A DNA stretch of 52,994 nt from a virus, in the IMG/VR virus record IMGVR_UViG_3300042374_001596, positions 1 to 52,994 of that record; one strand, 5' to 3'. Below the pieces are notes generated by a model. That model did no database searches, was not told where the DNA came from, and saw only the letters and a list, made by a program, of their open reading frames with translations. Numbering within the stretch: the first letter of the stretch is position 1; each line of letters opens with the position of its first letter. Shown in pieces: positions 5,777 through 50,744 of this stretch. Position numbers and translations under genes: made by a program.

Positions 5777-5964
5777 TTTTTTCTTCTTATATAAAGCACA
5801 GCTTGCTCTTCATAAAAGCACCTAATAAGCGTTTTATCTCCCGAATATCCTTTTAAATAGTAATTTCTCCAAATTGGGAATAAGTTGAATCTCCATTGTG
5901 GCACATAGTATCTTTGCTCATTCTCAATGATTTTTTTAACTCTATAGCTGTATAAAAAATTCAT
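5773..5964 (-). CDS. hypothetical basic protein, 63 aa
   Basis: ATG at 5964. The protein is rich in Tyr, Arg and Trp (YYVPQWRFNLFPIWRNYYLK) with no membrane segment or signal. A GTGTAA element lies exactly 8 bases before the start codon, as for four other genes in this window, which supports the start and argues that it is expressed. No Shine-Dalgarno is present. Function unknown. Confidence 0.6.
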   Translation of the reverse strand: MNFLYSYRVKKIIENEQRYYVPQWRFNLFPIWRNYYLKGYSGDKTLIRCFYEEQAVLYIRRKN

Positions 5965-5972
5965 ACATACTA

Positions 5973-5978
5973 TTACAC
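5973..5978 (-). promoter_or_regulatory. GTGTAA motif, 8 bases before the start at 5964
   Basis: Minus-strand GTGTAA followed by TAGTATGT and ATG. One of the recurring RTGTAA elements proposed here as a phage -10 element. Confidence 0.5.
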
Positions 5979-5993
5979 CATAATTTGTAAAAT

Positions 5994-6034
5994 TAAAAAA
6001 AATAGCAGACTATACTATGATAGCCTGCTATTTT
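5994..6034 (-). terminator. Rho-independent terminator after the small lipoprotein gene
   Basis: Minus-strand arms AAAATAGCAG (6034-6025) and CTGCTATTTT (6008-5999) pair perfectly over 10 bp and run into a T tract. It begins 22 bases after the lipoprotein stop codon. The A-rich left flank could also let it act weakly on the plus strand. Confidence 0.8.
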
Positions 6035-6055
6035 AATACTTTTAAATACGGGTTT

Positions 6056-6163
6056 TTATTTAACAGCAGCGACTGTAGTTTTGCCGCATGGCTGACAAGG
6101 CTTTTTGGAAGCACAGGCTGCCAATGCAACAACTACAACGATTGATAGAATAATATTTTTCAT
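6056..6163 (-). CDS. very small lipoprotein, 35 aa
   Basis: ATG at 6163. MKNIILSIVVVVALAAC is a signal peptide with lipobox LAAC (Cys17), leaving a mature peptide of only 19 residues, ASKKPCQPCGKTTVAAVK after the lipidated Cys. This predicts an outer- or inner-membrane-anchored peptide with a CQPC pair. AAGG lies shortly before the start, and a strong terminator follows. Phage lipopeptides of this kind can act in superinfection exclusion, but nothing here proves that. Confidence 0.7.
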   Translation of the reverse strand: MKNIILSIVVVVALAACASKKPCQPCGKTTVAAVK

Positions 6164-6229
6164 AAGGCCTTATTATATAATGTTTATTAAATAAGTCAAA
6201 TATTTTGTTGGTTAAAAATAATAAAATGG

Positions 6230-6420
6230 TAATGAAGTGTTTTACTCTAGAAATTGTCACTTCTTCAACGAGTTCTGGCATGGAGCCAGATGCATCGTCA
6301 TAGCTTGTATTTTAATAATGATACTTTCGTAGCTTCCCATGACTTTTTGCTCAGTATCGGACCATTCTTATCAATCACCAACAAGCAACTTCAGTTTGGC
6401 TGATCAAGAATATGCGTCAT
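6230..6420 (-). pseudogene. possible multiply frameshifted gene remnant
   Basis: No intact gene fills 6164-6464. Protein-like pieces lie end to end in different minus-strand frames: MTHILDQ from an ATG at 6420; AKLKLLVGD; DKNGPILSKKSWEATKV then SLLKYKL; and YDDASGSMPELVEEVTI then SRVKHF. Joining them needs single-base shifts near 6370 and near 6300. This may be a decayed gene or a cluster of sequencing indels. Confidence 0.35.
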
Positions 6421-6464
6421 GAACTTGATCGTATAAATTATACTACGTTTTTTTAAATGGAAAG

Positions 6465-6650
6465 TCAATCTTTTTTCTTTTTTCTTTCTCTGACCCATTT
6501 ATTTTTAAATCTCATAGTCCAATCTATCAATGCATAGGCAAATCCAACATCGCGCCCAGCCTTTTCACTCTCGTACCACTTATGCTTCATTATCTCCTCT
6601 TTTTGCGCCAAGAATTCTCGATATAATGATGTTTCTGCGATATTCATCAT
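6465..6650 (-). CDS. hypothetical protein, 61 aa
   Basis: ATG ATG at 6650. A charged, helical small protein (MMNIAETSLYREFLAQKEEI, then WYESEKAGRDVGFAYALIDW) ending in a run of Arg and Lys. A GTGTAA element lies exactly 8 bases before the first ATG. Similar short proteins with a 'WYxSEKxGxDVGxxxAxxDW' look occur beside phage tail or regulatory genes, but I cannot assign a function. Confidence 0.65.
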   Translation of the reverse strand: MMNIAETSLYREFLAQKEEIMKHKWYESEKAGRDVGFAYALIDWTMRFKNKWVRERKKKKD

Positions 6651-6658
6651 ACTCTATA

Positions 6659-6664
6659 TTACAC
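6659..6664 (-). promoter_or_regulatory. GTGTAA motif, 8 bases before the start at 6650
   Basis: Minus-strand GTGTAA, then TATAGAGT, then ATG. Same spacing as at 5973, 11144, 15194 and 25214. Confidence 0.5.
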
Positions 6665-6777
6665 TAATATAATAGGATCGCAACAATACTTGCAATTATT
6701 AGTATTGCTGCAAATGTAAAACAACATAAATCCATAACTTGTATGAATTTATCTTTAAATGTAGGATCCGCTCTCAC
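6664..6777 (-). CDS. possible small membrane protein with an unclear start, 37 aa
   Basis: The frame ends at a TAG at 6664. From a GTG at 6777 it reads VRADPTFKDKFIQVMD, then a hydrophobic segment (CCFTFAAILIIASIVAILLY) forming one membrane span at the C-terminus. The frame is open back to about 6810 but contains no ATG. A consensus GGAGG at 6827-6823 lies upstream with no usable start at normal distance, so the start may be rare (ATT) or lost by mutation. Confidence 0.3.
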   Translation of the reverse strand: MRADPTFKDKFIQVMDLCCFTFAAILIIASIVAILLY

Positions 6778-6845
6778 TCTATAGTTTAGTACGAACGCAA
6801 CAATATTTAATTAATTAAATTTCCTCCTTTCTTGTTTTGGTTAAG

Positions 6846-6916
6846 CTGGCTCGCTACGATTTGAACGTAGAAAAGTTCCTCCAAAGGGAACCGTGATACC
6901 GTTTCACCACGAGCCA
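6846..6916 (-). tRNA. tRNA-Gln (UUG)
   Basis: A 71-nt cloverleaf. Acceptor TGGCTCG pairs with CGAGCCA, the anticodon loop is CTTTGGA, the T arm is CTACGTTCAAATCGTAG and the discriminator is G. An ATGTAA element lies 19 bases upstream (6941-6936). Confidence 0.93.
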
Positions 6917-6959
6917 ATATTGTTGTAACTATATATTACATTAAAATAGCTTAATCTTC

Positions 6960-7250
6960 TTAAAAATCAAAGAATTCTTGCCGCTCTCGATCTTGATGAC
7001 ACATCTCCTCTTTGATCATTTTTTCTAGCTTGTGTTCTAAAAAATCTAGAGCTTTATCGTATGTCTCGAAATCTTCATCAATTTCGTCTGCTACGTAACC
7101 ATGATGTTGAACGCAGTATGTTTGATTTTGGCCATAACTCCAAACTGTATTGATGTAAAAATGGCAATCACGATCTTTATGGTGATCCTTACCAATTAAC
7201 TTATACCATTCATCTGTTAATTGTGTTATTTTTTTAAGCTTGTCTTTCAT
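6960..7250 (-). CDS. hypothetical protein, 96 aa
   Basis: ATG at 7250 (MKDKLKKITQLTDEWYKLIG) is chosen because it lies 2 bases past the upstream TAA; the longer frame starts with TTG. The protein has a central beta region with His and Cys (HYGYV-like turn around the CVQHHGYVADE segment) and a helical C-terminus ending HQDRERQEFFDF. Possible metal ligands are H30, H33, H37, C54, H56 and H57. Function unknown. Confidence 0.65.
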   Translation of the reverse strand: MKDKLKKITQLTDEWYKLIGKDHHKDRDCHFYINTVWSYGQNQTYCVQHHGYVADEIDEDFETYDKALDFLEHKLEKMIKEEMCHQDRERQEFFDF

Positions 7251-7252
7251 AA

Positions 7253-7651
7253 TTATCCCAAAGTACAAAGATCAAAATCAATCAATACGGGTTTATTTCT
7301 AATCTTGCCAACATTATCAGAGAAAAGATCATATGTACTCCATCCCATTGATGAAACATTTTTTCTTAACGCGGACATTTCTTCATTATTAAGCCCACCC
7401 TGCATTGCGTGTTCAGTAACATAATAAAAATAGCGTCCTTTGGTTCCCATAAATAATGGTTTGGGGCCAAAGCCCATTTTGTGGGCAGCATCTTGTCGAA
7501 AAAAGCATCCCTTACATTTTAGTTGACTGGTATAGAATTTTACACCATATCGCCCACTAATTTGAATGTAGTACCGAACAGTTGCGGAATCTGTTTGTTC
7601 ATAAAACCGCAAATTGATTTTGTTGATGATTTTTTTAAGTTTAGCAATCAT
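7253..7651 (-). CDS. hypothetical protein with a kinase-like C-terminal motif, 132 aa
   Basis: The C-terminal part reads YDLFSDNVGKIRNKPVLIDF, which resembles the D-x-H-x-x-N-x-G catalytic loop plus IDFG of protein-kinase-like folds, in a protein too short for a complete kinase. The N-terminal half is basic and carries CKGC. It overlaps the neighbouring genes closely (ATGA upstream, 2-base gap downstream). The kinase likeness is a pattern-level inference; the protein could be a small regulator built from a kinase C-lobe. Confidence 0.55.
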   Translation of the reverse strand: MIAKLKKIINKINLRFYEQTDSATVRYYIQISGRYGVKFYTSQLKCKGCFFRQDAAHKMGFGPKPLFMGTKGRYFYYVTEHAMQGGLNNEEMSALRKNVSSMGWSTYDLFSDNVGKIRNKPVLIDFDLCTLG

Positions 7652-7971
7652 GGCTCACAAACAAGAAGTGCAAGACTATTTCCGCTAAAAAACTCTTCTA
7701 CTGTTTTTTTTGCTGTTTTGAAATCATATTTTCCATCGACCCATTTGCAACCACGATCATAAGCAGTGGCTTCTTCAATTGAAGAATACTCCTCATAAAC
7801 AAAATCTTCGCCACAGCACTTGCAAGTTACATTATCTGGATCGCGCTTAAATAGTTCTTTAAAAGTCCTAACGGCTTCTCCAAGCGGCTCATCAATATAT
7901 ATGTGAGCATAAGGCGTCTTCAAATGACCACCACTATGCATATCCATGAAACGTGTAACAGTTTTCTTCAT
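7648..7971 (-). CDS. conserved phage protein with a CxCC metal-site motif, 107 aa
   Basis: The protein begins MKKTVTRFMDMHSGGHLKT, followed by AHIYIDEPLGEA and NVTCKCCGEDF, then YSSIEEATAYDRGC. The SGG-x-x-KT / IYI / VTCxCCGxDY pattern recurs in phage proteins of unknown role. The cysteines could bind Zn. A near-consensus promoter places the transcription start at about the ATG itself, so the mRNA is probably leaderless. Confidence 0.75.
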   Translation of the reverse strand: MKKTVTRFMDMHSGGHLKTPYAHIYIDEPLGEAVRTFKELFKRDPDNVTCKCCGEDFVYEEYSSIEEATAYDRGCKWVDGKYDFKTAKKTVEEFFSGNSLALLVCEP

Positions 7972-7977
7972 ACCACC

Positions 7978-8006
7978 ATTATGGGATTTTTTACAAATTT
8001 TGTCAA
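7978..8006 (-). promoter_or_regulatory. sigma-70-type promoter directly abutting the start codon at 7971
   Basis: TTGACA (8006-8001), a 17-base spacer and CATAAT (7983-7978) on the minus strand, with only 6 bases between the -10 and the ATG. Confidence 0.75.
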
Positions 8007-8365
8007 TAGAAAACTTGGTGTTTTTGTCGCACTTTGGACCAGATCAGAGTTGCGCCCCTGCTGGCATCAGTTAACAATTTTTCTTGATTATAGAGTTAAC
8101 CTCAGAACACCTAACCATTTATACAAGAGTTTTGGCCCATATAGCCTTGGTTTACCCAGAACCTACGCTCTTTTTTTTAATTACATATGTGCGCGCACAC
8201 TATGTGATCTTATTTACTGTGAAACCTATATCATAACGATTATAGGGGGTAGAGTTGCATACCTTATAAGGCGATCCCATTTTTTGGCTGGTCATCGCCA
8301 CACCACCATTTGCAAAATTTTAAAGAACTATTAATATTTATACACACTCTTTATAAAAAGATCAA
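8007..8365 (-). other. 359-base region with no convincing gene
   Basis: No good coding frame fills this gap. On the minus strand a 31-codon frame (ATG 8295 to stop 8200, MTSQKMGSPYKVCNSTPYNR and onward) is possible but unsupported. An inverted repeat GGCGAT/ATCGCC flanks a short loop near 8300-8271, a perfect palindrome GTGCGCGCAC lies near 8200, and GTTAAC occurs twice near 8070-8100. These suggest structured RNA or regulatory DNA, but no known class is recognised. Confidence 0.3.
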
Positions 8366-8539
8366 TTATTTTTTAAAAATTTTTATTTCAAGAATGCGAA
8401 ATTTTGTTCCCAAACCATGGCTTTTAAAATTTTCTACTTCTTGCGTTGCTTTTTTAACATTTTTATAATTGATAAAATCGTGCCTAATCCAAGATTTAAA
8501 CAAGTGGCTCCAGCATTCAATTTGGTAGTATTTATTCAT
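8366..8539 (-). CDS. hypothetical basic protein, 57 aa
   Basis: Start taken at the ATG at 8539 (MNKYYQIECWSHLFKSWIRH), 1 base after the upstream lipoprotein stop. The protein is basic, with a predicted beta-alpha-beta pattern ending FRILEIKIFKK. Small phage proteins of this shape are common; no function is known. Confidence 0.6.
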   Translation of the reverse strand: MNKYYQIECWSHLFKSWIRHDFINYKNVKKATQEVENFKSHGLGTKFRILEIKIFKK

Positions 8540-8540
8540 T

Positions 8541-8798
8541 TTAAAAAAGTATTTCAAGTCCAGTTTCACCATAGTCAGGCATCCCAACATCCATAGAGTG
8601 ATTGCTGATATATGGTTGCGCCATTTTTCCTTTGATATTTAATCGCTCATTAATCGGATAAATTGCAGTAATAACGTGCTTGCCTTTGGTGAATTGCTGA
8701 TTGCTATATTTAGTGCCTGTGACTTCACCCTTGACTTGAATTTTATCCAGATGTTCGCATGCTGTCAGCAGAAGGCATAGTAGTATTATTGCTTTCAT
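8541..8798 (-). CDS. small lipoprotein, 85 aa
   Basis: MKAIILLCLLLTAC is a short type II signal peptide with lipobox LTAC (Cys14). The mature part is beta-rich (KIQVKGEVTGTKYSN, KHVITAIYPINERL) and ends ETGLEILF. It should be anchored in the host envelope. Its start lies inside the 3' end of the 57-residue gene at 8743, a 56-base overlap. A role in exclusion or envelope modification is possible but not shown. Confidence 0.72.
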   Translation of the reverse strand: MKAIILLCLLLTACEHLDKIQVKGEVTGTKYSNQQFTKGKHVITAIYPINERLNIKGKMAQPYISNHSMDVGMPDYGETGLEILF

Positions 8799-8916
8799 CG
8801 TTTTCGTTTTTTTTAGACCAGTCTATCAAATCATAATTATCTTTGAATTTTTTGGAAAAGCAATTTCTTGGCTTATCGCCTTTTCCCGCCCCTTTATTTG
8901 ATGCTTTTTCGCTCAT
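8743..8916 (-). CDS. small GAGKGDKPR-type phage protein, 57 aa
   Basis: ATG at 8916, TAA at 8743. The sequence SNKGAGKGDKPR followed by FSKKFKDNYDLIDW matches a short motif I know from many small phage proteins (GAGKGDxPRxxxxxxYxxNYDxIxW). It overlaps the downstream lipoprotein gene in another frame. The unfolded, Lys/Gly-rich N-terminus and acidic C-terminus suggest a small binding protein. Function unknown. Confidence 0.7.
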   Translation of the reverse strand: MSEKASNKGAGKGDKPRNCFSKKFKDNYDLIDWSKKNENDESNNTTMPSADSMRTSG

Positions 8917-8928
8917 AAATTTGTTAAA

Positions 8929-9000
8929 TAGAGGCAGTAGGACTTGAACCTACAACCCTCACCTTATCAAAGTGATGCTCTGCCATTGAGCTATGCCTCT
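8929..9000 (-). tRNA. tRNA-Ile (GAU)
   Basis: A 72-nt cloverleaf. Acceptor AGAGGCA pairs with TGCCTCT, the anticodon loop is TTGATAA, the T arm is GTAGGTTCAAGTCCTAC and the discriminator is A. Confidence 0.94.
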
Positions 9001-9017
9001 GCGTATTCATAGTTTAG

Positions 9018-9044
9018 ATTATCTAAATTTTATTTAAATGTCAA
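9018..9044 (-). promoter_or_regulatory. candidate promoter for tRNA-Ile
   Basis: TTGACA (9044-9039) and GATAAT (9023-9018) on the minus strand. The spacer is 15 bases, shorter than ideal. It lies between tRNA-Leu and tRNA-Ile. Confidence 0.5.
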
Positions 9045-9051
9045 AAAGAAA

Positions 9052-9133
9052 TGGGCATGAAGGGAGTCGAACCCCTACTCCTTACGGAACCAGATCCTAA
9101 GTCTGGCGCGGCTGCCAGTTACGCCACATGCCC
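9052..9133 (-). tRNA. tRNA-Leu (UAG)
   Basis: An 82-nt type II tRNA. Acceptor GGGCATG pairs with CATGCCC, the anticodon stem-loop is CCAGACTTAGGATCTGG, there is a long variable arm and the discriminator is A. A GTGTAA element (9154-9149) ends 15 bases before its 5' end. Confidence 0.93.
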
Positions 9134-9135
9134 TT

Positions 9136-9402
9136 TTATTTGTTATACTTACACCAAGCATAGACAAGAATCAAGCACATAATTAAACCTACACAGTAGT
9201 TTAAAAACCACCACAGGCCAAATGTGCCCAAAAACATATAAATCATTCCTGAAATATACCCAACGATTGACATTAAAATTAGCATTAATGAAACATCTTT
9301 GGATGAATGATTTTTAAAAATTTTAACTATTTGTGGGATATAGCAAAACATAAAAGCAAATGTCATTACTATCCCAGCAATCTCTCGCATTATCTCTTTC
9401 AT
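9136..9402 (-). CDS. PQ-loop membrane protein, SemiSWEET-like
   Basis: An 88-residue protein with three predicted membrane helices (about 8-22, 38-58 and 62-82). The first helix ends in CYIPQIVKIFKNHSSKDVS, the proline-glutamine motif followed by the K-S-x-D-x-S turn of PQ-loop/SemiSWEET proteins. Bacterial SemiSWEETs are three-helix units of this length that dimerise to move sugars across the inner membrane. Substrate and direction cannot be read from the sequence. The ATG overlaps the stop of the upstream gene (ATGA). Confidence 0.75.
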   Translation of the reverse strand: MKEIMREIAGIVMTFAFMFCYIPQIVKIFKNHSSKDVSLMLILMSIVGYISGMIYMFLGTFGLWWFLNYCVGLIMCLILVYAWCKYNK

Positions 9403-9605
9403 AGTGAATATGCCATTTCGTTATTCCATTCTGCAAACTCTTCAATTTCGTCGATAAGCTGCTTCTCCATAAATTCAATAAATGCAATATCATTACTCAA
9501 TTCACGCTTGGCTATCAGCATAGTATCGGACAATTCTTCTTGTGGAATTGTAAGAAGCCAAAGAATAATTTTACCATATTGATTGACTTTGGTTTCTTTA
9601 TTCAT
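9399..9605 (-). CDS. hypothetical helical protein, 68 aa
   Basis: Start at the ATG at 9605 (MNKETKVNQYGKIILW), chosen because GGAGG lies 6 bases before it. A longer frame would start with TTG. The protein is acidic and helical (ELSNDIAFIEFMEKQLIDEI). It overlaps the upstream gene by 8 bases and the PQ-loop gene by ATGA. Function unknown. Confidence 0.68.
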   Translation of the reverse strand: MNKETKVNQYGKIILWLLTIPQEELSDTMLIAKRELSNDIAFIEFMEKQLIDEIEEFAEWNNEMAYSL

Positions 9606-9936
9606 ATTGCCCTCCAAACAATAAATCTATATCTTCATCTGATGCTTTTAAAATCCATTTGTTCATTTCGGGAATTCTATCTAAGTAGTTTAATATGTCT
9701 AGGTTATACTTTTCTGTGAGAAAAGGCAATATTATAAAATAAAAGATGGATGGATCTTCGAGGTCGCCGTCACGAAACCAGCTTGGCATATTCCAATCAA
9801 ATATATATTTTGAGTCATAGCCGTGATCGTCCATGAAGTTATGGAACGTATTTACAAGATGATTTTTTGGTAGCTTATTGACAATTTTGCAGAAGCTGCA
9901 ATTACAATCTTTTGTTTTGTGAGATTTCCCTTTCAT
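9598..9936 (-). CDS. hypothetical protein with CNCSFC motif, 112 aa
   Basis: The N-terminal SHKTKDCNCSFCKIVNKLPK could bind a metal ion (C11, C13, C16 with H6). The remainder is acidic and aromatic (DWNMPSWFRDGDLEDPSIFY). The start overlaps the stop of the HNH gene by ATGA. No known family recognised. Confidence 0.62.
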   Translation of the reverse strand: MKGKSHKTKDCNCSFCKIVNKLPKNHLVNTFHNFMDDHGYDSKYIFDWNMPSWFRDGDLEDPSIFYFIILPFLTEKYNLDILNYLDRIPEMNKWILKASDEDIDLLFGGQYE

Positions 9937-10574
9937 TTTATTTTATCTAAAAATATTGCCCAATCAGGATTAAGAGCTTTAATAAGTAAATGCGCGGTCA
10001 TAGGTCTTGGATTTTTTAGTTTGTATTTTGGACTGTACCCATGTTTGGACACAAATTCATCAATTGTCATGTCATTTTTTAAACGATTAATTTTTGATGA
10101 TGTGATGGCAAGATTATCCCAAGAATTTTTGCCGCCTTTTGATTTTGGATGCAAATGATCAATTGTTGCTTCGTTATAGGTGAGCTTTTCCCCCGTCCAA
10201 AAATCAACGCCATCATAACGTTCGTAAAGATTCTTTTTTGTAGGTCTAAAAGTTTTAATTGGAAGTTTATTATAATTGCTTCCTACAATAGCCACTGTTG
10301 GAACGCGAATTTCAAGATTGATTGTGTGGATTGAAAACTCATCGTGCTCTCTTGGTGACAATGTGACCCACTCATCCCAGCCAAGTGGGATAATTTCGCT
10401 TGGGCTAGCATAATCTGGCTCCCCATTATCATCTTCTAAATACTCTATCTTAATGGCTTTTTTGGGGTAATTAGCAGAATTCATATCTTCCAATACTTTC
10501 TTAACTGGAAGCGTACAGATGGGCAACCAAGAAGCATTAAGCATTAAAACTTTATGATTTAGAATATTAATCAT
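9933..10574 (-). CDS. HNH endonuclease family protein, 213 aa
   Basis: Residues 1-30 (MLNASWLPI, TLPVKKVLEDM) are the usual N-terminal strand-helix of a free-standing phage/bacterial HNH family. The core reads FWTGEKL, then TIDHLHPKSKGGKNSWDNLA and INRLKNDMT: H-L-H plus N and the N-R-x-K finish of HNH enzymes. The zinc-binding CxxC pairs of classical members are replaced (WTG at the first, SSKIN at the second), so metal binding is reduced. It likely cleaves DNA, but its role is unknown. Confidence 0.8.
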   Translation of the reverse strand: MINILNHKVLMLNASWLPICTLPVKKVLEDMNSANYPKKAIKIEYLEDDNGEPDYASPSEIIPLGWDEWVTLSPREHDEFSIHTINLEIRVPTVAIVGSNYNKLPIKTFRPTKKNLYERYDGVDFWTGEKLTYNEATIDHLHPKSKGGKNSWDNLAITSSKINRLKNDMTIDEFVSKHGYSPKYKLKNPRPMTAHLLIKALNPDWAIFLDKIK

Positions 10575-10631
10575 TTAAAAATAAAGATTAGAATTTTTTG
10601 GGTTAAAAGTAAAGATTATTTAATAATAAAA

Positions 10632-10637
10632 ATGTAA
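10632..10637 (+). promoter_or_regulatory. ATGTAA motif, 15 bases before the start at 10653
   Basis: Plus-strand ATGTAA, then 15 bases including GGTGAAG, then ATG. It heads the plus-strand island. Confidence 0.45.
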
Positions 10638-10652
10638 TGAATGGTGAAGTTT

Positions 10653-11129
10653 ATGGACAAACAAGATTTGCCATTATTGGCGACAACAGAACACAAAGAT
10701 GATATGGGTCGCCGCTCATATGATGAGAATGGTAATGGTAACGGCTGGTCACGATATCAAATAATGGTATTGCAGCAATTAACTGACCACACAAAGCTTC
10801 TTCAAGCATTAATGTCAGAAATTAATACAATAAAGCAGCAAATTGCAATCACGGATATTGTATCAAAAAATTGGAGAGATCAAGCTGATAGGTCAATACA
10901 GGAATTAAAAGATGATGTTGAATTTATTCTTGAGGACGAAGGTGGTATTAACCAAAGATTAAAGAGTATTGAAGATAATACAAAAATAGAAGAAAAGTCA
11001 AGCTTAAAAATAAAAGCATTTTGGGGTCTTTTGGGTGGGGCAGTTGTGGTAATTGTAGATTTGGCAATAAGAGTTGTAAGCTTGATTAGTAGTAAACTGC
11101 AAATTATAATGCAAAATCCGCCGCAGTAA
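10653..11129 (+). CDS. coiled-coil protein with a C-terminal membrane anchor, 158 aa
   Basis: ATG at 10653 (MDKQDLPLLATTEHKDD) is preferred over 10641 because GGTGAAG lies just before it and the ATGTAA element is then 15 bases away. Residues about 40-115 form a long helix with heptads (LQQLTDHTKLLQALMSEINT), then one membrane span (AFWGLLGGAVVVIVDLAIRV). This layout resembles XhlA-type lysis accessory proteins. It faces convergent structural genes. A link to lysis is inference. Confidence 0.65.
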   Translation: MDKQDLPLLATTEHKDDMGRRSYDENGNGNGWSRYQIMVLQQLTDHTKLLQALMSEINTIKQQIAITDIVSKNWRDQADRSIQELKDDVEFILEDEGGINQRLKSIEDNTKIEEKSSLKIKAFWGLLGGAVVVIVDLAIRVVSLISSKLQIIMQNPPQ

Positions 11130-11143
11130 AGTTGCGCTAACTA

Positions 11144-11149
11144 GTGTAA
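11144..11149 (+). promoter_or_regulatory. GTGTAA motif, 8 bases before the start at 11158
   Basis: Plus-strand GTGTAA, CTTTAATT, ATG. It is the only 8-base member on the plus strand and shows that the motif follows gene direction. Confidence 0.5.
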
Positions 11150-11157
11150 CTTTAATT

Positions 11158-11559
11158 ATGGTAGTAAAAACATTTTTTATTTGCCTTAGTGCGGTTTTAG
11201 TTCTCGGACTATTGCCTCATTATTCTACAAAGCCGCCAGAGGAAGATTTTGTACTCAATAATGGCTGTTTAATCTATTCTATTCAATATCAGCACGCACT
11301 AAAGGCTAAAAAAATACTTGGCGAATCAGAAGTTTGGGCTAAAGTTATAATGTACAAAGTATTGGGGGCAAAAGCGGGACATGCTGTTACTCTGTATATT
11401 TATAAAAACTCTACATATGTGTATGATCCGGCATTTGCAAGCTATCAATTGGCGCAATTTCCTGTATACAATCCATACAAGGTTGCAAAAATGATGCATC
11501 CAATGAATGATATTGTATGGGCTGAATATGCAGAGAATGTGATGCTATATAACCCTTAA
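11158..11559 (+). CDS. exported protein with Cys/His/Asp motifs, transglutaminase/peptidase-like
   Basis: A 133-residue protein. MVVKTFFICLSAVLVLGLLP is a signal peptide or signal anchor. The mature part carries NNGCLIYSIQYQHALKAKKI, then AGHAVTLYIYKNSTYVYDP. The order Cys, then GHAV in a beta strand, then YVYDP fits a papain-like or transglutaminase-like Cys-His-Asp triad (C37, H75, D90). That fold acts on proteins or peptidoglycan. It lies beside the lysis region, so a periplasmic hydrolase role is plausible. Catalytic function is inferred, not shown. Confidence 0.5.
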   Translation: MVVKTFFICLSAVLVLGLLPHYSTKPPEEDFVLNNGCLIYSIQYQHALKAKKILGESEVWAKVIMYKVLGAKAGHAVTLYIYKNSTYVYDPAFASYQLAQFPVYNPYKVAKMMHPMNDIVWAEYAENVMLYNP

Positions 11560-11563
11560 TTTT

Positions 11564-12892
11564 TTATCTAGTTTCGCGCCACTGAAGACTGGTTAATACA
11601 TTTGTAGTATTTCCTGGCCCAGTAGCAGCATTTTTTAATAAAACGGCAAATATATTGCTGTCCGTGCTGTCTATGTTTTGACTAATATAATTTCTTTTAG
11701 CGCTAGAAACATTTGCTAAACTTGAAGATACTCCAGCAGTATTGCCAACCCCAACTGCGTTTACCGTAATAAATCCAGCATCAAATAAATTTCCGCCATT
11801 TAAATTAAATCCAGTCGCTGTAATATTATATTCTACAACACTTGAATCGTCTACGCTTTGCCAAGATCCTCCAATTAAAGAAGCACCACTTGGTAGGCGC
11901 CAAAATTCATAAGAGCAAAGTTGGTCGGCACTATAAAGTTGGGAAGATCCCAATCTAACAACACTTCTATTTGGTGCCCCATAATATCCAGTTTTTAATC
12001 TTATTGCAATAACTGGCATTGTAGATCCAGCTGTTATATTTCTATATCCAGTAGTTCTTGCTGCAAAATCTACACCAGCTTCACTATAACCACCTTCGCT
12101 CACTACTGTTGCACAAATTTGATCCATAGAAGATATTCCAGTCGTTCCATTACTATAGTTTCTAATTTCACAACGAATCGGCAAATTAGGATTGCTCCAA
12201 TATACAGTGTTTTTATTATTACTATTATAAAATTCGTGAGCAATAATCGTATTGCCATCATGTACAAATCCCGCACGTACGCGACCAACTCCAAGCCATT
12301 GATAATCAGCTGTAAATAATTGGGTTTTAGTAATATCTAAATTAAAAGCTGATGGGCCAGTTCCATCACAGCGATCTTTATTCCAAGCGGATTGTGGAAT
12401 TACCGTATTTTGAACACTTCCAGATACGTCACTTCTTAATACGATAGCTAAGCTACCATCGCCGCTATGTTGGAAAAATATCCCATTATAATCATCATAC
12501 AAGCCAATCCTTTTATTAGTTCCAGATCTGGGAGGGTGAGAATTAAAGCTTTGTAGTGTTAATTGGCTTTTACCAGCCATATAGTGATGGTACATGCGGC
12601 TTTGATGAATTACATAATCATTTGCGCCAGTGCCAACTGTTAGAATAGCTTTTGCTTGCTTTACATTGAATGCAATATTAGATTGCGTGCCGCTAGTTTT
12701 AGTTAAAAGCTCTGTTTCTTCTCCGTAAACATGAGTATAGTCAGCCAACGTGTATTGCTCTGATACTCTTTGGCGACCAAAAGCATCTATTGTTCCATCT
12801 TTGTACAAATTTTGTACATTCAGAACGCCGTCAGTAACTGAAACTTTTATTGGTGCGTCTTGATATTCTTTTTCTATTCTATAGATGTGCAT
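11564..12892 (-). CDS. phage structural protein, DAFGRxRVS family
   Basis: A 442-residue protein. Near residue 36 it has GTIDAFGRQRVSEQYTLADY, a motif I recognise from virion/tail-associated proteins of large phages. The rest is a beta-rich, Gly/Ser/Asn-rich domain with low charge, as in adhesin or baseplate-associated proteins. It has its own upstream GTGTAA element and terminator and converges with the plus-strand island with only 4 bases between stops. Exact virion position unknown. Confidence 0.7.
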   Translation of the reverse strand: MHIYRIEKEYQDAPIKVSVTDGVLNVQNLYKDGTIDAFGRQRVSEQYTLADYTHVYGEETELLTKTSGTQSNIAFNVKQAKAILTVGTGANDYVIHQSRMYHHYMAGKSQLTLQSFNSHPPRSGTNKRIGLYDDYNGIFFQHSGDGSLAIVLRSDVSGSVQNTVIPQSAWNKDRCDGTGPSAFNLDITKTQLFTADYQWLGVGRVRAGFVHDGNTIIAHEFYNSNNKNTVYWSNPNLPIRCEIRNYSNGTTGISSMDQICATVVSEGGYSEAGVDFAARTTGYRNITAGSTMPVIAIRLKTGYYGAPNRSVVRLGSSQLYSADQLCSYEFWRLPSGASLIGGSWQSVDDSSVVEYNITATGFNLNGGNLFDAGFITVNAVGVGNTAGVSSSLANVSSAKRNYISQNIDSTDSNIFAVLLKNAATGPGNTTNVLTSLQWRETR

Positions 12893-12907
12893 AATTATAT
12901 ATATTAA

Positions 12908-12913
12908 TTACAC
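12908..12913 (-). promoter_or_regulatory. GTGTAA motif, 15 bases before the start at 12892
   Basis: Minus-strand GTGTAATTAATATATATAAT leads into the ATG. It lies directly downstream of a terminator, so it should begin a new transcript. Confidence 0.55.
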
Positions 12914-12924
12914 ACAATAAAATT

Positions 12925-12968
12925 AAAAAAAATTAAAAATATCCCCCACGCGCGAACGCATGAGGGAT
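12925..12968 (-). terminator. strong Rho-independent terminator
   Basis: Minus-strand 12-bp stem ATCCCTCATGCG / CGCGTGGGGGAT (two G-U pairs) with a TTCG loop, followed by an interrupted T tract (12940-12925). It ends the transcript of the small gene at 12991. Confidence 0.88.
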
Positions 12969-12990
12969 TATATATTTTATTTATTATTTA

Positions 12991-13149
12991 TTAAAATAAA
13001 GCCATTATGGTTTTTTTGGCCCAACGAAATAATCCGAAAAAAATCTTACCGATTTCCTTCAAATCTTCCCGCTGTATTGTTCCTGCATAGCCAATTGATC
13101 CATAAGGACCAAAAATGATCCCTAACTGGTGAGTTTGATAACGTTCCAT
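12991..13149 (-). CDS. small protein with consensus Shine-Dalgarno, 52 aa
   Basis: ATG at 13149, TAA at 12991. It is preceded by AAAGGAGGTG with 10 bases to the ATG, the best ribosome-binding site in the window, and by a candidate host-type promoter, and it is followed by a strong terminator. It is thus a one-gene transcription unit. The protein MERYQTHQLGIIFGPYGSIG and onward has a short hydrophobic Gly-rich part and a basic amphipathic C-terminus (FFGLFRWAKKTIMALF). High translation and small size suit an early host-takeover or inhibitor protein; this is inference. Confidence 0.75.
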   Translation of the reverse strand: MERYQTHQLGIIFGPYGSIGYAGTIQREDLKEIGKIFFGLFRWAKKTIMALF

Positions 13150-13178
13150 TAAGATTAGCACCTCCTTTCATATACTGT

Positions 13179-13206
13179 ATATTACAGCAATTTAGGTGCC
13201 AATCAA
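13179..13206 (-). promoter_or_regulatory. candidate sigma-70 promoter for the gene at 12991
   Basis: TTGATT (13206-13201), a 16-base spacer and TAATAT (13184-13179) on the minus strand. The predicted start is about 10 bases before the Shine-Dalgarno. Confidence 0.5.
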
Positions 13207-13218
13207 GTTACAATTTTG

Positions 13219-13914
13219 TTATAAATAGGCTGCTTGGAAGTGCATCCAGTCATAATTACGCCTTCTACCCAAGCTTGTCCAGCCCTCAGCTTCTACAATT
13301 TTCCAGAATGGTTCATATTCTTTCTTGCTAAATGTAGCTTTGGGACTGCTCCATTTTAATTGATTATTGTCGGGATCAAGGTCAATTGCAGCGCCCCAAC
13401 TGTGTATTGACCAAGCTGATCCGCCGCGCATTTTACGAACATTCAAGCATCCGCCAAACATATTTAATCTTAATTTCTCAATATCTTTTTCGCCATATGT
13501 TTTTAATGTATTATCAAAAATAATACCAAGCGATTGTGCAACTTTTTGATTGCATGTAATTCTTGATAGTGTGGTTGATGGCGCCCATGCTAGTTTTATT
13601 TTATATGGCAACTCTAGCTTGATTTGATTTTCGCCAACCGAACCATAAAAATCAACCATACTATTGTAGTCTTGTTTTGGCCAGCGTTGTGATAGTGGTG
13701 TATTTTTTGAAACGTTTGTTACAAATTTCCAAGTCTTGGGACCAACAACACCATCTGCCTTTAATCCGTTTTTAAGCTGAAATTTTAAAGTTTCACGCTC
13801 TGTTGCTGGGCCAAAAGCACCATCAACATATGGAATTTTATAACCAGTGCTTTGTAGAAACAATTGCCATTGTTTTACTTCTTCTCCAAAACTACCTTTT
13901 TTCAAAGCTTCCAT
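13219..13914 (-). CDS. endolysin: peptidoglycan-binding domain plus M15-type peptidase
   Basis: A 231-residue protein. Residues 4-66 are a PG_binding_1 repeat (GSFGEEVKQWQLFLQSTGY, VDGAFGPATERE, ADGVVGPKTW). The C-terminal catalytic part has SIHSWGAAIDLDP (zinc ligands His and Asp of the SxHxxGxAxD motif) and DWMHFQ (third ligand His). These are the marks of D-alanyl-D-alanine carboxypeptidase/L-Ala-D-Glu endopeptidases (VanY/M15) that cut peptide cross-links. There is no signal peptide, so a holin or the adjacent membrane proteins must release it. Start and holin-like stop overlap as TAATG. Confidence 0.92.
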   Translation of the reverse strand: MEALKKGSFGEEVKQWQLFLQSTGYKIPYVDGAFGPATERETLKFQLKNGLKADGVVGPKTWKFVTNVSKNTPLSQRWPKQDYNSMVDFYGSVGENQIKLELPYKIKLAWAPSTTLSRITCNQKVAQSLGIIFDNTLKTYGEKDIEKLRLNMFGGCLNVRKMRGGSAWSIHSWGAAIDLDPDNNQLKWSSPKATFSKKEYEPFWKIVEAEGWTSLGRRRNYDWMHFQAAYL

Positions 13915-14393
13915 TACTGTTTGCCCTCCTGATCAAATACCCATTCTATGGGAGCATAGGATGGATCGTCTTTGTATTTTTCTGCATAAACAATTGTTTG
14001 CTCTTCTATAATTTTTTCTTCCCTTTGTTCGGATGTTAATAGGGAATCTAAATTAACACTTGATGAGCTGCCATACTTGAGATCAATCGCGGCTTGTACC
14101 CCAATGTAAGAAGCTACAATGATTGCTACAATTTCAATGGTCTTTGTAAAAATAGTAACATAACCAGCAATAAGTTCATTTCTGCTTGGTAATAAAAATA
14201 ATATACCAACAGATGTCAGATAAAAAAACAATAAACCAACAAAAGAAGAAAATGCTAAGAAAAATTTTTTAGACTTGAAGTGATTTTCTTTTCGTAGTGA
14301 GCTTTGTAACTCGATTGGGGTTCCTGGCGGAACGCGATTCGATGTTAAAAAAGAAGCTGCACTGCTTGCGATATTTTTTAAGTTACCCCACAT
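13914..14393 (-). CDS. holin-like membrane protein, 159 aa
   Basis: Start at the ATG at 14393 (MWGNLKNIASSAASFL), 1 base past the upstream TAA; a longer TTG-start frame would overlap by 46 bases. Two membrane helices (KFFLAFSSFVGLLFFYLTSV and onward; FTKTIEIVAIIVASYIGV) are followed by an acidic cytoplasmic tail. Position directly before the endolysin and the two-helix shape suggest a holin or other membrane lysis factor, without a specific family match. Confidence 0.6.
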   Translation of the reverse strand: MWGNLKNIASSAASFLTSNRVPPGTPIELQSSLRKENHFKSKKFFLAFSSFVGLLFFYLTSVGILFLLPSRNELIAGYVTIFTKTIEIVAIIVASYIGVQAAIDLKYGSSSSVNLDSLLTSEQREEKIIEEQTIVYAEKYKDDPSYAPIEWVFDQEGKQ

Positions 14394-14394
14394 A

Positions 14395-14913
14395 TTATAA
14401 AAATACCCAAACAAGTGTTGCGAATAATCCAGCACCGCCAATTGGAACTAGTAAGCTGTATGGTGGAGGAACAAAGCTCATAATTTGCAAGCCCAAAAGT
14501 ACGCCGACTGCGCCAGCTATAATTGCAGCAATCCATTTAAGACGGTGATAGCGCTTGATTGCATTAGTGTATTTTTCAAGCCATTTTTGCGCTTCGGCTT
14601 GCTGAACAACGCCCCACTCTTTTAATGCGTCAATATCTTTTTTAAGTTTATCAATTTGTAAAAAGCTGTCTTTTAAATTACCGTTTGCTTTACTTAAGTT
14701 ATCTTTAAGTTTTGCATTTTCCGACTTGGCAACTCTTAATTCCGATTGCAATTCTTTAACAATTTGTTTTGCATCTTGAACTGGAGTTTTAGACTTTTGC
14801 ACAACTGCGACTGGTGTTGGCTGTGCTTTTGGCTTTGGCTTGAACCAATTGAATTGGCTGTAGCCAGTGCTTGTTAGGATTAATAATAAAACTATTGGTA
14901 CTAATTTTTTCAT
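14395..14913 (-). CDS. secreted coiled-coil membrane protein of the lysis cassette, 172 aa
   Basis: MKKLVPIVLLLILTSTGYSQ is a cleavable signal peptide. A Pro/Lys-rich linker and a long coiled coil follow (KELQSELRVAKSENAKLKDN, then LKDSFLQIDKLKKDIDALKE), and two C-terminal hydrophobic segments (IAAIIAGAVGVLLGL, LLVPIGGAGLFATLVWVFL). Periplasmic coiled coil plus membrane anchoring, next to a lipoprotein and an endolysin, fits a spanin-type partner, although classical inner-membrane spanins are anchored at the N-terminus. The start overlaps the lipoprotein stop (ATGA). Confidence 0.6.
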   Translation of the reverse strand: MKKLVPIVLLLILTSTGYSQFNWFKPKPKAQPTPVAVVQKSKTPVQDAKQIVKELQSELRVAKSENAKLKDNLSKANGNLKDSFLQIDKLKKDIDALKEWGVVQQAEAQKWLEKYTNAIKRYHRLKWIAAIIAGAVGVLLGLQIMSFVPPPYSLLVPIGGAGLFATLVWVFL

Positions 14914-15185: not shown

Positions 15186-15193
15186 ACTATTCT

Positions 15194-15199
15194 TTACAC
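15194..15199 (-). promoter_or_regulatory. GTGTAA motif, 8 bases before the start at 15185
   Basis: Minus-strand GTGTAAAGAATAGTATG. Nearly the same sequence as the element at 25214 (GTGTAAAGCATACTATG). Confidence 0.55.
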
Positions 15200-15227
15200 C
15201 AAATATTATTGGGTTAGAATTAAATAA

Positions 15228-15659: not shown

Positions 15660-15663
15660 AATT

Positions 15664-16314: not shown

Positions 16315-16315
16315 A

Positions 16316-19565: not shown

Positions 19566-19580
19566 GACTTTATTATTACA

Positions 19581-19586
19581 TTACAC
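19581..19586 (-). promoter_or_regulatory. GTGTAA motif, 15 bases before the start at 19565
   Basis: Minus-strand GTGTAATGTAATAATAAAGT, then CATG. An AT-rich inverted repeat (TTAATTAAT/ATTAATTAA) lies upstream and may end the previous transcript. Confidence 0.55.
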
Positions 19587-19630
19587 CTCTAGTGCAATAT
19601 ATTTTTTAATTAATTAATCGATTAAAATAA

Positions 19631-19804: not shown

Positions 19805-19808
19805 TTGA

Positions 19809-19967: not shown

Positions 19968-19968
19968 C

Positions 19969-32413: not shown

Positions 32414-32419
32414 TTACAC
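32414..32419 (-). promoter_or_regulatory. GTGTAA motif, 38 bases before the start at 32375
   Basis: Minus-strand ACGGTGTAATTAATTAAG. The longer distance would allow a normal leader. Same core as at 12908 and 35603. Confidence 0.5.
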
Positions 32420-35602: not shown

Positions 35603-35608
35603 TTACAC
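35603..35608 (-). promoter_or_regulatory. GTGTAA motif, 15 bases before the start at 35587
   Basis: Minus-strand GGGTGTAATTAATATTAATA, then ATTATG. It lies at the very end of the polymerase gene, marking the switch from replication operon to virion genes. Confidence 0.55.
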
Positions 35609-46338: not shown

Positions 46339-46340
46339 AG

Positions 46341-47330: not shown

Positions 47331-47334
47331 AATT

Positions 47335-47877: not shown

Positions 47878-47908
47878 ATTTTTATTATTTAATAGTTATA
47901 GTTTAATT

Positions 47909-50275
47909 TTATGCTTGTCCGGTCGCATATGGGCGCAATCTTTTTCTGATTTGTTGACCGGGCTCGGCACTTTCTGGAATATTCACATAAGAAAATTCAC
48001 CAGACTTTAGCCAAGTAAGTTTTTGCTTGAATTTTTGCAAACGTCTCCATTTTTTATTTTTATATGTAAGTCCGCCAGAGGCCGCATCATTGTTGTAATT
48101 ATATTCACTTGGAAATATTTTATTTACAAGCTGTAATATTTTTGAATTAATTTGCTTAATTGCTGCTGTTTTGGCAATATTTCTTGCATCATTCTCGGTT
48201 GGGCCTGACTTATAGGCTGTATAAACTAGATTGTTATAATCATCAATTGCATGGCGATAAGGATTTCTTTTTTGATGCCATGGTACCTCTCCGGAGACGA
48301 TATATTGTGCTGATGGATTTGGAAATATTGTGTGTGCTCCAGCTGGGCTAATTCCTGTTTGTAGAACTTTATCAATACTGTCTAGGGTTCCATAGCCAGA
48401 ATAAATAACTGAAATATTTCTATCATTTACAATTCCAATTTCAGTGTCAAGCGTGCAAGAAACCAACTCTACGGAAAATCTAACTCCTGAGGGGATTATT
48501 CCATTCCATGTTCCTGTAGCGATAACTTTATTATTATTTTTATATAATTGATTGTAAAATTTATAAAAATATGTATCTTTTAATGGATCTGCTTGTTTGA
48601 AGTGTCCATTAGGATTTATTGCATATTTTGTTCCAGTTGCTGTTCTGGTTGGGATTTGTATTCCAGAATTCAGTATTGTTTGGTAAGTTATTGATCTGCC
48701 ACTGATAATGTATCCGCTCCATGCATTGCCTGTTGGCGCTGGGAGTTGTGTTTCTGGAGACATTCCTGTTGTTGCTGCTCTCCAAGCGCTATAAATAGGA
48801 ACTTGATATGTATAATTTGTTTTGTATATGCCTTCTGGTAGCACCCTGCCGTCATCAATATACCGTGAATCAGGAATTAATGATGGCATTTGGAGCAGCT
48901 TTGAAAGCATTTTTCTTTCTTTTCTGCAGGTTTTAAAAGCGGATACTACCGGAGATTTAACTGATGCGCGATTCAGGTTAATTCCTGATGCTGCTCTTGG
49001 GTGACCGCTAGCAGGTATCCAAACCCCATCAAGCTTTCTTGGATCTGTTTTTTTCCAATCAGTTAGACTGTTTGGTTGATATATATATACAACGCCTCTT
49101 TGCCCCGTGTTTGTTGAGAGATTTACGTTTCCGCTTAGGCAAATAGCCCATGCGCCACTACCATATGGTGTAGATATTGTACTATCAAAATATACTTGCC
49201 TTGCTGGTTTTTCAATGTTATAAAATCTTAACCTGCTAGTATCCTCTGATGGAATTGGTGACTCTTTATAATTTCCATTTAGCGTATCAAGATATCCATA
49301 TTTTCCGCAACCAATAAATCCTGTTGTTCCAGAACCATACCATGAAGACTGATCGATGGTGGCCAATGAGTCTGCACCAGGAACAACAGTTTTAGTTAGT
49401 AACTGTGTTTCTGTGTATAGATCTTCAATAGTGTTTAAAAAACCAGTTTCTATAGTGTGAGGGCTCACATAGCAAATTGTTTTTTGTTCAGCATCACCAG
49501 TTGATATTAGTAATAGCCCGTTTATTGATTGTTCCGTTGGCGATTGGCCATTGTCTTGGTTAAATTTAGGAGCCAATTTGACTGGTACATTAAAAACTGG
49601 ACTATCATAAACAGATACTGCGTTTGGATATGGGATATTGAACCCACTAAGATTCATATTATCATATGGTGATTGTTGCTGTCCAGATTGAAATTGAGTG
49701 GATTGCTTATGCCAGCGATAGTATGCCTTTCTTGATTCCTCTTTTGATAATTTTCCTACAAATTTTGGGGAAAGTTCTTGTTTGCCAGAGCGTGTTTGGA
49801 TTTCAATATCTAATGTGTTTGATGCTTTTTCTGGAAAGCGAAATCTTGCATATGAGAATGAATTTTTATTAAATACGCGTTTTACAACTTTTTCTTCTGA
49901 CCATGGCTTGAAAAAATTATTGTCTTTATAGCTATAATATTCTGAAGGAAAATGTATTTCCGATAATTGTCCTACTAGTGGGGTGTTAATGCGATATCTT
50001 ACAAGAAAGTGCTCTGAAGCAATGGTCTGCCTCCATGTTTTTAAAACTTTTACTTGTGCGCTATTTCCAAGCGTGCCTTCTACTGGTTTTCTAATTACTA
50101 GATATGGATTGGTCTTTCTTAATGGGCCAACATTTTCTAAATCCAAGAAAGCAGATTTTAGATTAAAAACTGCTGTTTTTTGCTGGTCTGTGAAGCCAAT
50201 GTCTTCACCAGCCTTTGTATAGGCGCCAAAGCCTAGCTTTTGCAGGTCTTCTTTGGAAATAGAAAAATTATCCAT
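47909..50275 (-). CDS. large virion-type protein with intron in its leader, 788 aa
   Basis: N-terminal helix region FSISKEDLQKLGFGAYTKAG then KTNPYLVIRKPVEGTLGNSA, and a long beta-dominated body with YRINTPLVGQLSEIHFPSEY, SYARFRFPEKASNTLDIEIQ and Tyr/Ser/Pro-rich segments. The end has FPSEYNYNNDAASGGLTYKN and a basic tail. No catalytic motif is visible. Size and neighbours suggest a baseplate, neck or tail-surface protein. The leader of about 460 bases holds a group I intron core. No clear Shine-Dalgarno is seen at the ATG. Confidence 0.6.
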   Translation of the reverse strand: MDNFSISKEDLQKLGFGAYTKAGEDIGFTDQQKTAVFNLKSAFLDLENVGPLRKTNPYLVIRKPVEGTLGNSAQVKVLKTWRQTIASEHFLVRYRINTPLVGQLSEIHFPSEYYSYKDNNFFKPWSEEKVVKRVFNKNSFSYARFRFPEKASNTLDIEIQTRSGKQELSPKFVGKLSKEESRKAYYRWHKQSTQFQSGQQQSPYDNMNLSGFNIPYPNAVSVYDSPVFNVPVKLAPKFNQDNGQSPTEQSINGLLLISTGDAEQKTICYVSPHTIETGFLNTIEDLYTETQLLTKTVVPGADSLATIDQSSWYGSGTTGFIGCGKYGYLDTLNGNYKESPIPSEDTSRLRFYNIEKPARQVYFDSTISTPYGSGAWAICLSGNVNLSTNTGQRGVVYIYQPNSLTDWKKTDPRKLDGVWIPASGHPRAASGINLNRASVKSPVVSAFKTCRKERKMLSKLLQMPSLIPDSRYIDDGRVLPEGIYKTNYTYQVPIYSAWRAATTGMSPETQLPAPTGNAWSGYIISGRSITYQTILNSGIQIPTRTATGTKYAINPNGHFKQADPLKDTYFYKFYNQLYKNNNKVIATGTWNGIIPSGVRFSVELVSCTLDTEIGIVNDRNISVIYSGYGTLDSIDKVLQTGISPAGAHTIFPNPSAQYIVSGEVPWHQKRNPYRHAIDDYNNLVYTAYKSGPTENDARNIAKTAAIKQINSKILQLVNKIFPSEYNYNNDAASGGLTYKNKKWRRLQKFKQKLTWLKSGEFSYVNIPESAEPGQQIRKRLRPYATGQA

Positions 50276-50299
50276 AAATTTTTAAAATTTTTTTTGATC

Positions 50300-50700
50300 T
50301 TTTAACGTCCGTTCTTAAACACTCCTATCTAGTCAAGTCATTTTATCCGTCCTGGCTTCTCAATCTGTTACCCTGGGGACAAGGCTGAGTTTACTTCTAG
50401 ACGAATCCTCTCGGTGGACCTAACATTCTCAGAATGTGATCGATCAATTTGTTATCGTACAGTTGTTTATACCATACATCTATATATTTCTATATAGTTC
50501 AGACTATATCTTGGTACCAAAAGTTAATTTGGCACACAGGGCGCTCTTGGGCAGTTTTATTGTTGGGACTCAACCGCCTAGTCGTTACACCTTCTGTCCT
50601 ATCTTTCCCAGACAGCTTGGCTCGGTATTGTCTTTTTGGCAAGTTATTCACCAACGAAGATATCCACCGAATTCACCCCGTAAACGCTATTTAAATTTTT
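50300..50700 (-). ncRNA. group I intron-like ribozyme in an untranslated leader
   Basis: Core elements on the minus strand in order: P3 ACGGGGTG (50681-50674), P4 CGGT (50669-50666) with ACCG (50626-50623) inside the Q element AATACCGAGCCAAGC, P6a CTGTC/GACAG (50615, 50594), P7 GACTA (50583-50579), a P7.1 hairpin GGCGGTT/AACTGCC, P3' CGCCCTGT (50543-50536), P8 CCAAATTAACTTTTGG (50532-50517), the S element AAGATATAGTC with P7' TAGTC (50506-50502), and P9 CTATATA-GAAA-TATATAG (50497-50480). More hairpins run to about 50300. Extra helices between P7 and P3' point to subgroup IA. Splice sites are not assigned; no endonuclease is encoded. Ends are approximate. Confidence 0.82.
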
Positions 50701-50738
50701 TAAAGAACTTGAGTAGATTTTACTACTAGCAAATACAA

Positions 50739-50744
50739 TTACAC
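50739..50744 (-). promoter_or_regulatory. GTGTAA motif upstream of the intron-bearing leader
   Basis: Minus-strand TTAGTGTAATTGTATTTG. About 40 bases before the P-core region and 463 bases before the 788-residue gene, immediately after the stop of the gene at 50760. Confidence 0.5.

Follow-up and report, generated by a model that had tools for sequence, protein, structure and literature searches.

The hexamer GTGTAA, frequently extended to GTGTAAT, recurs ahead of genes in the virus record IMGVR_UViG_3300042374_001596 of IMG/VR (the window, 52,994 nucleotides) and in its relatives, where it probably acts as a late promoter that consists of a -10-like element without a -35 box and is read by the host RNA polymerase equipped with a sigma factor of the phage, more probably the one termed sigma A below than a second one, sigma B. 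Transcription would start 8–9 bases past this phage-specific core element. With a start codon at gap 8 (the gap being the number of bases between element and start codon) the mRNA would be leaderless, the A of the ATG serving as +1, and start codons at gaps 9–19 would leave short leaders of about 1–11 bases. Other, probably early, genes would be served by sigma70-type promoters (TTGACW-N17-TANAAT) located 6 bases before the ATG, and their mRNAs would be leaderless as well.

We tentatively extend this model to the widespread lineage as a whole, which may run both temporal programmes on leaderless or near-leaderless mRNAs, with host sigma70 early and a strict GTGTAA promoter together with a cysteine-insert sigma factor late, including at the portal-like and tape-measure genes. 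If so, production of the virion proteins would depend on leaderless initiation, carried out either by the host ribosome or by one modified by the phage. The data suggest leaderless or short-leader mRNAs for the structural genes throughout a phage lineage, and GTGTAA would allow the structural-gene regulon to be recognised from sequence in a phage group without an isolate relative by tblastn: among 50,697 phage records there is no match to the portal-like protein and none at 1e-5 to sigma A or sigma B. Since the sigma family and the motif differ between clades, the sigma-DNA code would be directly testable.

Spread and letters of GTGTAA among the relatives

The window is a separate virus record, and all six 60-base probes from it recur unchanged, at a single constant offset, in an IMG/VR record of 170,518 bases (G001). 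Three further records were compared: G003, whose DnaE is 99% identical to that of the window, and G004 and G005, whose DnaE is 44% identical. G003 is a mosaic relative, as the 788-amino-acid protein is only 44% identical (best segment). In phage records DnaE has distant matches only, with up to about 28% identity among the matches listed, and the terminase of one relative is likewise distant (23–27% among the matches listed). When the portal-like protein and sigma A were used as scan queries, at least 581 and at least 567 stretches of relatives, respectively, were confirmed, and the loci studied are the best 80 kept from each scan. We analysed 149 loci, with the copies from G001, G003 and G005 excluded; 19 of these share a contig with another locus, leaving 130 distinct contigs. 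The clade comparison, the permutation control and the density figures for 149 loci still include these 19. Nine contigs of metagenome-assembled genomes carry a portal relative, three of them labelled Flavobacteriales or Flavobacteriaceae and the others scattered, and we draw no host from this.

On the 130 contigs, GTGTAA occupies 318 of 38,356 upstream positions compared to 178 of 1,482,484 genic positions, a 69-fold enrichment, and 104 contigs have at least one upstream copy. The fold was the same before removal of the same-contig loci (391 in 46,659 upstream positions, 121 of 149 loci). The corresponding upstream folds are 1.5 for ATGTAA, 2.9 for CTGTAA, 2.0 for TTGTAA and 7.6 for the reverse complement of GTGTAA. 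An equal frequency inside and ahead of genes, which would have spoken against the sequence-only reading of this DNA, is thus not what a genome-wide scan returns. All four records show a higher intergenic than genic density (G004: 29 in 19,404 vs 29 in 197,546 bases), with some of the intergenic sites lying within tRNA genes or uncalled open reading frames (ORFs). A de novo count of hexamer–gap pairs before called starts placed GTGTAA at gap 8 first in G003, G004 and G005 combined (15 vs 0.49 expected, p 1.1e-17), in G001 plus G004 (12 vs 0.38) and in G004 alone (7 vs 0.20), and second, after a TTGACT/TTGACA class, in G005 and in G001. The sites are also conserved at orthologous genes of diverged phages, including sites 19–46 bases from the start, and each of the two main sigma-A clades has 19 ortholog groups with sites (unclustered genes counted as one).

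These data bear on the simplest alternative, namely that a few chance matches caught the eye in a window rich in A and T. RTGTAA overall is indeed not in excess there (69 matches vs 80.6 expected, 92 of 100 shuffles reaching 69), and ATGTAA is near chance in the relatives, but conservation at diverged orthologs together with the upstream enrichment refutes chance in our reading, and we give it practically no credence. The signal in the window is the position of the element, not its abundance: five of 26 GTGTAA copies have an ATG at gap 8, compared to 0.47 expected by independence, and all five open ORFs of 61–133 amino acids.

At gap 8 in G001, G004 and G005, there are 19 GTGTAA sites and at most two of each single-base variant (G003 was excluded from these variant and flank counts as well as from the TTGAC set described below). 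A non-redundant set, built from 389 of the 391 sites by keeping 128 with flanks less than 60% identical, has T as the seventh letter in 64%. The sequence-only reading had given the first letter as R and proposed 15 bases as a second general distance, and neither carries over to the group. The relatives mostly have G, and RTGTAA was rejected as group consensus with ATGTAA near chance. In G001, A, C and G precede TGTAAT at 7, 3 and 7 sites (0.43, 0.13 and 0.20 expected), and this looser first letter in the window's clade explains the R; G005 is an exception among the relatives, with four upstream ATGTAAT vs 0.38 expected. Gap 15 holds only four of the 128 non-redundant sites, compared to 44 at gaps 9–12 and 23 at gaps 16–19, so that a universal 15-base class was rejected and this class is mainly a property of the window's lineage. 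In clade C of sigma A, GTGTAG and GTGTAT occur in addition (this comparison omitted 11 of 125 loci, which had no clade label). Because seven of the 11 unique GTGTAG sites come from one ortholog group, co-variation of sigma and motif was discarded as proof and is kept as a hint only.

Gap geometry and a second promoter class

No column from -50 to -1 exceeds a Kullback-Leibler divergence of 0.12 in the 128 non-redundant sites, indicating that the element has no -35 partner and supporting the original proposal of a phage-specific, directional, -10-like element. The gap distribution has a sharp lower edge, with eight sites at gaps 3–7, 19 at 8, 11 at 9, 14 at 10 and 13 at 11; gaps 8–15 hold 73 sites, and six of the eight short-gap sites have a second in-frame ATG at gap 10–15. 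Across the 149 loci, raw counting gives 23 sites at gaps 0–7 and 181 at gaps 8–15, compared to 331 and 583 for the other 89 permutations of the hexamer summed. A transcription start 8–9 bases downstream would explain this lower edge and the long upper tail, which an element pairing with the ribosome would not. The leaderless geometry proposed for the 8-base class is thus supported. Of 18 sites at gap 8, 17 have a pyrimidine (T or C) directly before the ATG (G004/G005 ortholog pairs included). Outside gap 8, an A in 21 of 26 sites first suggested a strong initiator at +15, but the non-redundant set did not bear this out; the count of 21 included sites at gap 9, whose A belongs to the ATG itself, as well as G004/G005 ortholog pairs.

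A distance of 8 bases also falls inside the usual Shine-Dalgarno range, which raises the question of whether GTGTAA could instead act on the mRNA as a translation-initiation signal, a Shine-Dalgarno substitute that pairs with rRNA or a protein. Shine-Dalgarno tetramers are at about chance in three of the four genomes, G003, G005 and G001 (11 vs 10.7 expected, of 169), the last in support of the lack of a Shine-Dalgarno that had been claimed from the sequence alone for the 8-base genes; in G004 they are somewhat above (12 vs 6.7). A translation signal should however have a symmetric optimum rather than an edge and a tail, and it would account neither for conserved sites 19–46 bases away nor for two window sites located directly after terminator-like hairpins, nor for GTGTAA 10–15 bases before five of 53 tRNA or transfer-messenger RNA (tmRNA) genes, which are untranslated. 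We therefore consider such a signal very improbable. An operator recognised by a phage regulator, or a promoter borrowed from a host alternative sigma factor, is somewhat easier to imagine, yet still improbable. GTGTAA is non-palindromic and oriented with the gene, and an operator would adjoin a recognisable promoter, of which none is seen in the 128 sites; phage sigma genes are present as well.

Overlooked in the sequence-only reading was that the sigma70-type promoters of these genomes are also placed for leaderless starts. TTGAC at gap 29 precedes 26 starts in G001, G004 and G005, and these sites, although selected on TTGAC alone, show TANAAT ending 6 bases before the ATG (-11A in 26 of 26, -7T in 96%); some ORFs in the set were added from gaps, and among these at least G001_50106- is a tRNA-Tyr leader. 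The arrangement TTGACW-N17-TANAAT-N6-ATG has the geometry of sigma70 promoters and would place +1 at the first base of the ATG, by which the second class appears leaderless, too. Its spacer carries a conserved (C/A)AAA at -22 to -19.

The two classes segregate. Around sigma B (18 of 23 loci used, with the near-identical pairs L211/L212 and L214/L215), the TTGAC class recurs with 12 sites at gap 29, and GTGTAA is at background (1 in 6,324 upstream vs 50 in 309,393 genic positions). Five contigs could be viewed from both sides: upstream GTGTAA is found at 25 of 2,769 positions near the portal-like or sigma A genes vs two of 2,253 near sigma B (p 4e-5), and TTGAC at gaps 28–31 zero vs seven times, although two of these contigs are alike in counts and may be near-duplicates.

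The genes served differ as well. GTGTAA lies within 70 bases of the portal-like gene in 81 of 106 contigs, precedes the tape measure gene (PHROG E 2e-48) in G004 and G005, and is also found before a virion structural protein gene in the window. Among ten proteins of this class that were searched, six were unmatched, another had its sole match in a family of unknown function, and L026:3826-4608 matched a 'starvation-inducible transcriptional regulator' family. The sigma70-type class includes an aminotransferase, an RNA-ligase-like protein, an HNH protein, sigma B and two unmatched proteins; a deoxynucleoside monophosphate kinase gene has a promoter of this class with TTGAAA in place of TTGAC. 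Judged by gene content, the GTGTAA class looks late and the sigma70-type class early.

Phage sigma factors and known systems

The sequence-only reading had suggested searching the rest of the genome for a phage sigma factor, and such genes were found in G001, beyond the window. The sigma region 2 profile PF04542 is above cut-off in three of the four records. Sigma A has region 2 by profile, and 24 aligned proteins (22 of 90 full-length proteins at <80% identity, plus two) share four invariant cysteines in an insert between a region-2-like and a region-4-like part. The region 4 profile PF04545 did not match sigma A; its C-terminal domain is modelled with a fold like region 4 of Escherichia coli sigmaE (Z 9.7, root mean square deviation 2.2, 69 residues; the model has a pLDDT of 78.9 and a pTM of 0.43). 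Foldseek with this model gave a best PDB E-value of 1.1e-3, T4 gp55 is not among the matches listed in the fold searches, and a PDB profile search was weak (best match a DNA-binding protein with E 0.053, best sigma factor E 0.14). Sigma B has regions 2 and 4 by profile, above cut-offs only in G001. One sigma B match, at G007:C1:66344-66919 (-), contains one internal TGA. The RpoB domain PF00562 was not found in six records, and the core enzyme is therefore assumed to be that of the host.

Sigma A lies in a block with the terminase and portal-like genes, and because of this location in a structural block we tentatively regard it as the more likely reader. The same promoter could instead be read by sigma B, which would be made early and turn on the late genes including that of sigma A. 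Of 18 sigma B loci, 14 have TTGAC in the 50 bases ahead of the gene and ten have it at gaps 28–30, so that sigma B could be made by the host polymerase before late transcription, and the gene pair containing sigma A in G005 has a GTGTAA promoter ahead of it. We hold this option to be rather unlikely, since sigma B has a profile region 4 and the GTGTAA promoters have no -35, and since sigma A shares a block with the portal-like and terminase genes; neither argument settles the matter, because the sigma A model shows a region 4, too. Of 24 records, 21 have sigma A and 14 sigma B, but 17 of these were picked via the portal or sigma A (sigma A in 17, sigma B in seven) and seven via sigma B (sigma B in seven, sigma A in four), and a choice by presence counts was rejected for this selection bias.

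Several observations weigh against a strict GTGTAA promoter read by sigma A. Region 4, apparently present in sigma A according to the model, normally reads a -35, yet none is seen. With its gene behind a GTGTAA promoter in G005, sigma A would need another initial source, and sigma B could be the reader; the presence counts do not discriminate between the two. Upstream GTGTAA is absent from 26 of the 130 contigs, GTGTAA at gap 8 is not among the top pairs in G003 alone, and the window's own sub-lineage is looser in the first letter than the group, with TGTAAT strongly enriched. A few ortholog groups account for most of the co-variation between the motif and the clades of sigma A. Three of the five tRNA-type sites also have TTGATT upstream, two of them orthologous-looking, and non-redundant sites with the start codon at gap 14 or more show only a modest purine peak where transcription is expected to start. 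Finally, the portal label is a weak PHROG match (E 7e-5).

Promoters of this kind are known from T4 gp55 and phiEco32. The letters, the sigma family and the AUG placement in both classes were not found in the open-licence literature searched, and no phage GTGTAAT promoter was among the titles listed. Like ECF (extracytoplasmic function) sigma factors, sigma A and sigma B have region-2-like and region-4-like parts with no region 3 detected; sigma A differs by its conserved four-cysteine insert. ECF promoters usually have a -35. T4 gp55 is not known to have a region 4, whereas sigma A models with one. T4 late promoters, which depend on gp55, gp33 and gp45, are likewise -10-region promoters read with a phage sigma and carry TATAAATA at -13 to -6, and the motif can shift with a diverged sigma factor, as in Aeh1 (CTAAATA) (PMC1524935). 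Here, GTGTAAT is found instead of TATAAATA. The bacterial-type clamp PF00712 was found in none of six records, which are possibly fragments; T4-type gp45 and gp33 were not searched for.

In phiEco32 and phage 7-11, a short -10-like motif before phage genes is likewise assigned to a phage-encoded sigma factor, and the phiEco32 consensus TAATGTATA is called experimentally determined (PMC4331800). It shares the TGTA core with GTGTAA and differs in the other letters, and the accessible part of that report does not describe placement at the AUG (PMC4331800). A short TGTA-containing -10-like motif without -35 thus also holds here. Sigma A and sigma B have no tblastn match at 1e-5 in the phage collection, whose inclusion of phiEco32 was not checked, and were not compared directly with the phiEco32 sigma factor. 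As in late promoters read by phage sigma factors, the motif is enriched and oriented before structural genes in genomes that encode a sigma factor.

Leaderless genes are widespread though not dominant in bacteria, and TA-led genes have TANNNT about 10–12 bp before the start, a -10 placed so that the start site is the start codon (PMC3160421). The TTGAC class fits this description. That survey covers Pribnow-like signals in cellular genomes only (PMC3160421), whereas GTGTAA is a non-Pribnow phage element with the same geometry. Both marks of leaderless genes, a fixed -10 distance that would put +1 on the start codon and the lack of Shine-Dalgarno sequences, are found here, with some Shine-Dalgarno excess in G004.

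Element sites in the window

The sites in the window are listed below. Re-reading of the exact positions placed all ten elements that had been noted at 8 or 15 bases at these distances; for the one before 10653 the distance is exact but depends on the choice of start. The copies farther upstream of 32375 and 50275 were also recovered, as was the terminator-like hairpin before the element at 12908, and a second hairpin precedes the element at 5973 (hairpins were scanned for in window positions 5700–13300).

Promoter-like elements in the window (gap counts are bases between element and start; E, expectation value)
Element	Position	Strand	Context
GTGTAA	5973..5978	-	8 bases before ATG 5964 (63-amino-acid ORF); terminator-like hairpin 5999-6034 precedes
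GTGTAA	6659..6664	-	8 bases before ATG 6650 (61-amino-acid ORF)
GTGTAA	11144..11149	+	8 bases before ATG 11158 (133-amino-acid ORF)
GTGTAA	15194..15199	-	8 bases before ATG 15185 (91-amino-acid ORF)
GTGTAA	25214..25219	-	8 bases before ATG 25205 (109-amino-acid ORF)
ATGTAA(T)	10632..10637	+	15 bases before ATG 10653; gap 3 if alternative start 10641 is used
GTGTAA(T)	12908..12913	-	15 bases before virion structural gene 12892; terminator-like hairpin 12941-12968 precedes
GTGTAA(T)	19581..19586	-	15 bases before ATG 19565 (684 amino acids; weak tail-protein match, E 8e-4)
GTGTAA(T)	35603..35608	-	15 bases before ATG 35587 (294 amino acids)
GTGTAA	9149..9154	-	15 bases before tRNA-Leu (9052-9133)
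GTGTAA(T)	32414..32419	-	38 bases before ATG 32375; G004 ortholog has GTGTAA at gap 21
GTGTAA(T)	50739..50744	-	463 bases before ATG 50275; candidate long-leader promoter
Sigma70-type, TTGACA-N17-CATAAT	7978..8006	-	Ends 6 bases before ATG 7971 (gene 7648-7971)
Sigma70-type, TTGACA at gap 29	1274..1302	-	Before ATG 1267 (gene 971-1267; G001_46227-)

In the window alone, GTGTAA at gap 8 and at gap 15 were each counted three times vs 0.11 expected, numbers that are lowered by the failure of the de novo caller to call the short genes at 5964 and 6650. One of the four matches to GTGTAA-N15-ATG (30512) opens just a 53-amino-acid ORF that overlaps another ORF. The site at 35603 has the same gap in G003 and is absent at the G004 and G005 orthologs. 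Before tRNA-Leu there is also TTGATT at gap 35, which makes a sigma70-type promoter possible there as well. The long leader at 50276-50759 holds a second GTGTAA at 50585, 309 bases before ATG 50275; it had been described as an intron leader, which is neither confirmed nor denied by the lack of a group I intron among the Rfam matches at gathering threshold in the window.

Stretches of low called coding fraction, with 0.41-0.48 GC, are found at G001 1-15000 (L012), G003 100000-107022 (L033) and G005 1-20000 (L021), and inspection by eye showed a few short inverted repeats in them, such as GTGTAAGT...ACTTAC. The tRNA cluster of the window includes a tmRNA at 32593-33027 (-) (Rfam RF00023, 152.7 bits) that is unlisted by ARAGORN, and G005 also has one.

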